This document shows, in pieces, positions 25,313 to 26,110 of a stretch of 64,000 bases of DNA; the stretch's first letter is position 1; every line of letters begins with the position of its first letter. Source of the DNA: Abyssogena phaseoliformis symbiont OG214 (lineage in GTDB: Bacteria > Pseudomonadota > Gammaproteobacteria > PS1 > Pseudothioglobaceae). The position numbers and the translations under genes were made by a program. A model generated the notes under the pieces. That model saw only the letters and a list, made by a program, of their open reading frames with translations. It did no database searches and was not told the DNA's origin. The stretch is from the NCBI RefSeq assembly GCF_016592595.1, contig NZ_AP012977.1, forward strand, positions 1,403,912 to 1,467,911. The letters are read 5' to 3'.

Positions 25313-25409
25313 TTTTGCTTATTTTCTGCGTCATTTTTTTCGCTCACTTGTCGTTTGGATTAACCAAACTCCTACGCTCACTCAAAAAATTTCTTGAAAA
25401 TAAGCAAAA
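25313..25409 (-). repeat. Structured spacer repeat, copy B (between tRNA-Ala and 23S)
   Basis: Outer arms TTTTGCTTATTTTC (25313-25326) and GAAAATAAGCAAAA (25396-25409) are perfect 14-bp complements. Inside is GTTTGG-ATTAA-CCAAAC (25353-25369), then ACTCCTAC and the box TCACTCAAAAAAT ending at 25390. The 24 bases 25367-25390 match 26070-26093 (copy A) at 21 positions. The hairpin arms differ from the other copies but remain paired. Confidence 0.7.
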
Positions 25410-25456
25410 TCTGAAATCACAAACCTACAAAGGTTATAGGTTTCGTATTTCACCTT

Positions 25457-25494
25457 GAATTCACCAATTGTGATAAATCACAATTGGTGAATTC
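25457..25494. repeat. 18-bp perfect inverted repeat in the rRNA spacer
   Basis: The left arm at 25457-25474 (GAATTCACCAATTGTGAT) is exactly complementary to the right arm at 25477-25494, separated by AA. As RNA it would make a very stable hairpin in the precursor upstream of 23S. No T-run follows in the transcribed direction, so it is unlikely to be a terminator. It may be an RNase III site. Confidence 0.85.
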
Positions 25495-25640
25495 TTTATT
25501 TCATTGCTAGTTTTTACACTAGCGATGAGAATCCATATTTTTTGAAATTGTTGTGTCAATGCAATTCACCAATGAAAACTGTCATCACAACAGTCTTTGC
25601 GTTGTTATATTGCATATTTACAAACTTTACTTCATGTATT

Positions 25641-25656
25641 AAATTGTTAAAGAGCT
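25641..25656 (-). promoter_or_regulatory. boxA antitermination site in the 16S-23S spacer
   Basis: On minus it reads AGCTCTTTAACAATTT, nearly identical to the E. coli boxA core. This site recruits NusB-NusE and the antitermination complex in rRNA operons. Confidence 0.8.
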
Positions 25657-25740
25657 CCACACCCGAAAGCGTGGTATAAAAACTTAAACAAGGCAACGAT
25701 TAAAAATTGCCTTGTTTAAGTTTTAAAATAAAAGAATATT

Positions 25741-25816
25741 TGGTGGAGCCAGGGAGGATCGAACTCCCGACCTCTTGCGTGCAAGGCAAGCACTCTCCCA
25801 GCTGAGCTATGGCCCC
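25741..25816 (-). tRNA. tRNA-Ala (anticodon TGC)
   Basis: 76 bases including encoded CCA. The 5' GGGGCCATAGCTCAGC, anticodon stem-loop CTTGCCTTGCACGCAAG with TGC, T-loop GTTCGATCC and 3' CCACCA are standard. Located in the 16S-23S spacer. Confidence 0.98.
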
Positions 25817-25840
25817 TAAAACAGCATAAAAAATACTGCA

Positions 25841-25921
25841 ATTTTATTTTTTACAAAGCGGATGTGAGGGCGTTTACGAGTAAGTAAACGACTAAACATC
25901 TAACACTGTAAAAAATAAAAT
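25841..25921. repeat. Structured spacer repeat, copy C (between the two tRNAs)
   Basis: Outer arms at 25841-25855 (ATTTTATTTTTTACA) and 25907-25921 are perfect 15-bp complements, ending right against the tRNA-Ile 3' end. The inner hairpin is CGTTTAC-GAGTAA-GTAAACG (25871-25890), followed by AC. Apparently the same architecture as copies A and B, though its orientation may be reversed. Confidence 0.65.
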
Positions 25922-25922
25922 T

Positions 25923-25999
25923 TGGTGGGTCTGGGTGGATTTGAACCACCGACCTCACCCTTATCAGGGGTGCGCTCTAACCAACTGAGCTACAGACCC
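25923..25999 (-). tRNA. tRNA-Ile (anticodon GAT)
   Basis: 77 bases including encoded CCA. It reads GGGTCTGTAGCTCAGTTGG, anticodon loop CTGATAA with GAT, T-arm GGTTCAAATCC and 3' CAGACCCACCA. The acceptor stem GGGTCTG/CAGACCC pairs fully. Confidence 0.98.
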
Positions 26000-26014
26000 A
26001 AAATTACTGGTTTA

Positions 26015-26110
26015 TTTTTCATTCTTCTGCATTATTTTCTTAACTCGGGTAGTCATGTAGCTACTACCACACTCCTACCTTCACTCAAAAAATACCTTGA
26101 ATAATAAAAA
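26015..26110 (-). repeat. Structured spacer repeat, copy A (between 16S and tRNA-Ile)
   Basis: Contains inner hairpin GGTAGT (26048-26053) with ACTACC (26063-26068), followed by ACTCCTAC and TCACTCAAAAAAT, then ACCTTGAATAATAA. On the other side lies TTCTGCATTATTTTC, resembling the copy B arm region. The outer arms pair less perfectly than in copies B and C. Confidence 0.6.

Follow-up and report, generated by a model that had tools for sequence, protein, structure and literature searches.

The structured repeats in the rRNA spacers of this genome (complete; 1,542,177 bases; family of Ca. Thioglobus) are probably inherited copies of an ERIC-like (IRU-like) element, which would have entered in an ancestor, descended vertically with occasional loss, and would fold in the rRNA precursor, where RNase III probably trims them. 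The element is a non-coding, imperfectly palindromic and dispersed sequence of ~105 bp with the core AAGGCR...GGAG-stem-loop-stem-TGAC...AACGCAG, and its copies measure 88–107 bp plus an outer stem specific to the locus. Five copies were found in this genome, four of them in the single rRNA operon, which lies within the window (the whole 64,000-nucleotide stretch of DNA analysed).

Hairpins in the rRNA spacers

The genome holds a single rRNA operon, on the minus strand and made up of 16S rRNA (26215–27760), tRNA-Ile (GAT; 25923–25999), tRNA-Ala (TGC; 25741–25816), 23S rRNA (22374–25277) and 5S rRNA (21951–22066). The original prediction placed a stem-loop in each of the three spacers around the two tRNAs. 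Folded as RNA, these spacers reach −37, −33.8 and −31.6 kcal/mol (z-scores −6.4, −6.8 and −5.6), and for each spacer none of 200 dinucleotide shuffles was equally stable, which bears the prediction out. The inner stems described there (GGTAGT/ACTACC, GTTTGG/CCAAAC and CGTTTAC/GTAAACG) are all present, as are the perfect outer arms of 14 bp (25313 with 25396) and 15 bp (25841 with 25907), and inspection by eye confirmed that two of the copies, A and B below, share 21 of 24 bases in 24-mers ending in TCACTCAAAAAAT, found at 25378 and 26081. Unrelated hairpins also occur in the spacers, for example at 25457–25494. BoxA-like antitermination sequences, expected for an rrn operon, occur at two places of the minus strand: GCTCTTTAACA (25645–25655) between tRNA-Ala and 23S, and TTGCTCTTTA (27910–27919) in the 16S leader.

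Copy A (25309–25412, minus strand) occupies the tRNA-Ala/23S spacer with its right end toward 23S, and is closed by the 14-bp perfect outer arms. Copy B (26010–26115, minus strand, thus in transcript orientation) lies between 16S and tRNA-Ile with its right (AACGCAG) end toward tRNA-Ile, and folds alone to −30.1 kcal/mol. Copy C (25838–25925, plus strand), between the two tRNAs, has the 15-bp perfect outer arms and is oriented opposite to A, B and D; its right end points toward the tRNA-Ile 3′ end, and the model match overlaps the tRNA-Ile CCA by ~3 bp. Copy D (22087–22193, minus strand) sits in the 23S/5S spacer, right end toward 5S. Three covariance models were used: R1, built from aligned A and B copies of relatives and trained only on rrn copies of the A/B type; R2, built with copy C; and the broader R3, whose training set included copies B and D and excluded A and C. 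Copy A scored E = 1.8e-15 with R1, for which it is a training copy, and 1.1e-15 with R3, outside whose training set it lies; copy B, a member of both sets, scored 1.9e-16 and 2.9e-15. Copy C was matched by R2 at 1.7e-19 (R2 having been built with it) and, on the opposite strand, by R1 (4.3e-4) and R3 (2.6e-7), neither of which was trained on C. Copy D was matched by R1, untrained on it, at 1.6e-4 and by R3, trained on it, at 4.3e-14. Judged by these matches, the spacer structures A–D are one homologous family. The three-copy family first proposed holds as to homology, with the corrections from R1 and R3 that C is inverted and that a fourth copy, D, had been missed. Searching Rfam, relaxed thresholds included, returned no family for these hairpins, and a search with an exact 15-base pattern allowing 3 mismatches was uninformative.

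A box at 22350 had also been put forward as a relative of the element. This box (TCACTCAAATAAT, 22350–22362, minus strand) has neither an element hairpin nor a model match, and was ruled out as a further copy: it falls within the conserved 3′ side of the 23S processing stem. That side (approximately 22334–22373) pairs with the 5′ strand in the flank at approximately 25278–25306 (both on the minus strand; −37.3 kcal/mol). The 22350 flank is near-identical among those g1 relatives for which this side of 23S was read, with or without elements nearby. Tested in five genomes, the 23S 3′ flank paired with the 5′ flank at −35.8 to −50.5 kcal/mol, and G012, which has neither box nor elements, still forms the stem.

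Database records and assemblies of relatives yielded some further observations on these spacers. The spacer of G004, a member of the window's genus, is identical to that of Ca. Ruthturnera sp. Tsphm01 (CP125320) and of two further records, which are Ca. Thioglobus MAGs. In Ca. Thioglobus sp. TC_Bin1 (L110) the 16S–23S spacer continues into sequence that by eye resembles a permease-type gene on the opposite strand, probably through misassembly. In L022 of G014, the 16S/tRNA-Ile spacer contains, ahead of the intact gene, a disrupted partial second copy of the 5′ half of tRNA-Ile.

Inheritance, pairing and the precursor RNA

Within the window's genus, copy A is absent from G003, G002, G010 and the 1.0-Mb genomes lack copy B or have it truncated, copy C is absent from G007, and copy D is missing in several members, with an internal deletion of it in G010. 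The D site is occupied in G014, of another genus, and empty or internally deleted in other relatives. Extra copies lie between tRNA-Ile and tRNA-Ala in G014 and G021. Short, element-free spacers are found in G012 and G022, in G013 and in G020 (three other genera), and no element was detected in the 16S–23S spacer of the g2, g3 and g10 genomes examined. Several of the copy losses look like deletions between short direct repeats, such as AGAAGAAT in G010. This pattern at orthologous sites suggests vertical inheritance with occasional loss of single copies, the copies having presumably reached these spacers in an ancestor common to several Thioglobaceae genera. Elements are kept in the 1.0-Mb reduced genomes. 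By a tally of model matches, ~19 of the 21 copies detected in the window's genus lie in rrn spacers, and sister genera have many dispersed copies. In this genome, four of five copies in one operon exceeds neutral scatter and could mean selection for a role there.

Compensatory change in the inner stems had been suspected, and among 13 orthologous A copies it is real: pairing was kept in 91% of cells, both sides had changed at 11 of 30 pairs, and the covariation score was 0.295, as against 0.169 for shuffles (0/500) and no more than 0.083 for slid controls. These orthologues showed neither a loss of conserved pairing nor a want of excess covariation. Template switching can give the same pattern, however, so that the covariation is undecided between RNA function and an inherited DNA palindrome. 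We give somewhat less than an even chance to the proposal that pairing is kept mainly by template switching at quasi-palindromes during replication, one arm being rewritten from the other, in which case compensatory change need not imply selection on RNA. The mechanism has been proposed to create and maintain RNA hairpins (PMC8794818). In G011 (L008), a 19-nt perfect inverted copy of tRNA-Ile (TGATAAGGGTGAGGTCGGT) in the spacer after that tRNA, 3 nt past its CCA, is a template-switch footprint; the other relatives tested have at most 7 nt. Likewise, the 17-bp perfect hairpin at 25457–25494 (GAATTCACCAATTGTGA...) is imperfect in most relatives, turned perfect separately in G000 and G006, and looks like quasi-palindrome correction. 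Less easily accommodated are the many kept pairs that are G.U on the element strand, whereas copying alone would yield Watson–Crick pairs, and the comparison of copy A with G004, where two T.G pairs changed to C.G and T.A in different arms, which needs more than one event.

The earlier suggestion of an RNA processing signal between each mature RNA was not borne out as the primary explanation: processing stems were rejected in that role on presence and absence, since copies are missing within the genus and from the g2, g3 and g10 genomes. Conserved presence at homologous positions, as expected of an RNase III processing signal, does not hold, the elements being absent from other genera and from some members of this one. 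The rRNA hairpins may act as a processing signal, but we hold it rather unlikely that, whatever their origin, they are a lineage-specific signal under selection, with RNase III sites kept between the mature RNAs. The pairing retained by the A orthologues with covariation above controls, the concentration of the genus's copies in rrn spacers and their retention in the reduced genomes would all fit such a signal; yet A, B and C are each absent from some members of the same genus, the spacers examined in the g2, g3 and g10 genomes lack elements, an ordinary 23S processing stem exists without them, copy C is oppositely oriented, and the same covariation is obtainable by template switching (PMC8794818). 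Nor does the distribution of G.U versus A.C mismatches help, as the asymmetry among Thioglobaceae copies goes with the strand of the element irrespective of which way the host transcribes it, and therefore gives selection on host-transcript RNA no support. On the element's AAGGC strand, helix mismatches were mostly G.T and not A.C. What the elements share with the RNase III stems of rRNA operons is double-stranded precursor RNA flanking the mature RNAs, but canonical stems join both ends of 16S or 23S. The elements instead fold locally and are missing in related genera, and this operon has its canonical 23S stem in addition to them.

As inherited ERIC-like copies, the elements should fold in the rRNA precursor into long hairpins outside the mature RNAs. 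These hairpins would probably be cut by RNase III, whose gene is present in G000 and all g1 relatives tested, and degraded with other spacer fragments, by analogy with transcribed Correia elements. RNase III is reported to cleave transcribed Correia elements, and ERIC RNA to affect mRNA stability (PMC10969869, PMC2649163, PMC2229807). The Correia/NEMIS element of Neisseria (CREE) is likened to the present one by description and not by sequence: it is a small palindromic element transcribed with its neighbours, 104–108 bp in its short form, and RNase III is known to act on its RNA hairpin (PMC2649163, PMC2229807), but its TA target and terminal repeats of 24–26 bp were not found here. The copies would be tolerated and might serve as additional double-stranded sites for processing or stabilisation, with no single one essential genus-wide.

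A dispersed family and its relation to ERIC

The fifth copy in this genome, a decayed one matched by R3, lies outside the operon at 73799–73904, between nuoE and nuoD (names read off the translated flanks). R1, trained on rrn copies only, matches it weakly (E = 0.27), and G014, from another genus, has a copy at the same nuoE/nuoD place that R1 matches at E = 3.6e-7; R1 also reports dispersed copies in G014. A scan of the whole genome in 78 stretches with R1 gave no further strong match. Across the Thioglobaceae, R3 matched 49 of 83 genomes and 8 of 11 genera, with up to 27 copies per genome. At E ≤ 1e-4 it matched 49 of 369 sampled gammaproteobacterial genomes (three of the 49 being Thioglobaceae) and 41 of 271 genera, many of the genomes carrying several copies. 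The proposed expanded palindromic element family is supported by copies outside the operon here, across the Thioglobaceae and across Gammaproteobacteria, which a genome-wide search outside rrn and covariance modelling in relatives returned, and by the homology of its core to E. coli ERIC.

From the Thioglobaceae 85 copies were fetched, 84 with usable flanks, representing 28 distinct loci. They are intergenic, multi-copy and near gene ends, in locations that gene order suggests are transcribed. Fourteen copies, several of them orthologous and all oriented alike, lie 0–19 bp from tRNA 3′ ends, and at 42 copies, representing 17 distinct loci, a convergent reading frame terminates close to the right end (one of the 42 frames overlaps a tRNA gene); many of these tRNA-end and frame-end copies are orthologues and hence not independent events. 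Several genera carry the element at sites such as nuoD and tRNA-Gln, an argument for old insertions passed on by vertical descent. Further afield, G251, from another family, has a copy just upstream of tRNA-Ala in its rRNA operon, and in G408 (L240, 1370–1677) an ERIC-like element lies inside the variable loop of an FMN riboswitch aptamer, and the riboswitch still scores above the Rfam threshold. Tandem duplicates of the element with a unit of 123–124 bp were observed at G014:C1:1020448-1020678, where the unit includes its flank GTGCCACTAATGATTTAGCAA, and at G024:C1:58803-59032. In some distant genera (L242, L246, L365 and similar; G353, G387, G285) the conserved ends of the element are longer (near GTAACTRCTCAGC), and such ends might point to a partner transposase.

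The relation to ERIC was tested by models and profile. A query of the two ERIC primer sequences was matched in 5375 of 5426 E. coli genomes, from which four loci representing two distinct sites were fetched. With filters off, R3 gave the ERIC as its best match in each of the four loci, full length and on the right strand, at 14.0–20.4 bits; over 80 kb the two ERICs ranked 1 and 7, at an E of only 0.1. A gapped sequence profile was built on 24 copies from other gammaproteobacteria, leaving out ERIC and Thioglobaceae copies; over 80 kb it ranked the two E. coli ERICs first (22.9) and second (19.4), ahead of sites at 16.8 and 12.2. It scored −9.9 on the reverse complement, and only 1 of 2000 ERIC dinucleotide shuffles scored as high. 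A local nhmmer search did not find the E. coli ERICs. That the resemblance is convergence, the Thioglobaceae family being a separate element to which any similar palindromic stem could score, is improbable: the likeness is confined to the core, with different arms and ends, modest covariance scores and a negative nhmmer search, but four blocks occur on the correct strand and in the correct order, sequence alone places the ERICs as the top two in 80 kb with so rare a shuffled equal, and intermediates come from many genera.

The family is, by comparison of sequences, ERIC-like, with a homologous core and different outer arms and termini. With ERIC/IRU/RU-1 of Enterobacteriaceae and Vibrio it shares the core AAGGC...GGAG-stem-loop-stem-TGAC...AACGCAG in the same strand and order, and the general form of an imperfect palindrome of ~100–130 bp, intergenic and beside gene ends. 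The copies also fold as one long stem-loop, although at 88–107 bp plus the outer stem they are somewhat under ERIC's ~127 bp. Outer arms and terminal sequences are not shared: termini at most loci read RC-AAGTATTTTT...AAAAGACGMA-GY, and TATAC-type ends were not seen. ERIC-type terminal repeats, 5′-TA-3′ termini and a consistent TA duplication were absent from the Thioglobaceae loci, and we therefore name the family ERIC-like and not canonical ERIC. The Thioglobaceae host, the places where copies lie (rRNA spacers, tRNA 3′ ends, a riboswitch loop) and the locus-specific outer stems likewise set it apart.

Locus-specific outer stems and placement of the element

Outside the conserved ends, the two flanks of a copy tend to form an inverted repeat, whose sequence differs from locus to locus. 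Over the 28 loci, the longest perfect outer stem averaged 5.6, compared with 3.98 when partners were permuted between loci (0/2000). The outer repeats can take in a stop codon (e.g. CCTTAAC/GTTAAGG), and orthologous copies at nuoD show covarying outer arms (AGAAAC/GTTTCT, AGAGGC/GCCTCT, AAAAAC/GTTTTT). Such outer stems would be expected if the element inserted at hairpin tips, or if template switching afterwards lengthened the palindrome. The element would have inserted as if at the tips of existing hairpins, within short inverted repeats specific to the locus. YPAL/RU-2 of Yersinia inserts at or next to dyad symmetry (PMC2229807), as the outer stems suggest here, but is 168 bp long and not A+T-rich, and is likened by description, not by sequence. 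The element may also have inserted into intrinsic terminators: at tRNA-Gln g3 has an ordinary terminator where other genera carry the element, but the outer stems are without the terminator U-run. Comparison of occupied with empty sites gave no clean, unambiguous target-site duplication of the kind that a recently mobile or transposase-mobilised element (MITE) would leave. Only tentatively, and with less confidence than doubt, would we extend this to a class-wide ERIC-like family that targets the tips of existing hairpins (in rRNA spacers, at gene and tRNA 3′ ends and in variable stems of riboswitches) and lengthens them by ~50 bp, being kept in some sulfur-oxidising symbiont-related lineages in the sole rRNA operon as added precursor-processing hairpins.

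To our knowledge, ERIC elements have been known since 1990–91 almost only from enterobacteria and vibrios. Searches of the open-access literature found neither the family described from Thioglobaceae nor ERIC-like elements described from rRNA spacers. Three things are new here: how widely the ERIC-like family extends through the class, the fact that it resides in rRNA spacers, and its position within local inverted repeats. The spacers also carry a caution, in that strong folding together with covariation can stem from inherited palindromic DNA plus template switching and need not mark a processing signal. A class-wide superfamily with orthologous insertions retained across genera and with locus-specific outer stems makes insertion at hairpin tips testable, and the same superfamily does so for the use that hosts may make of the element's RNA hairpins.
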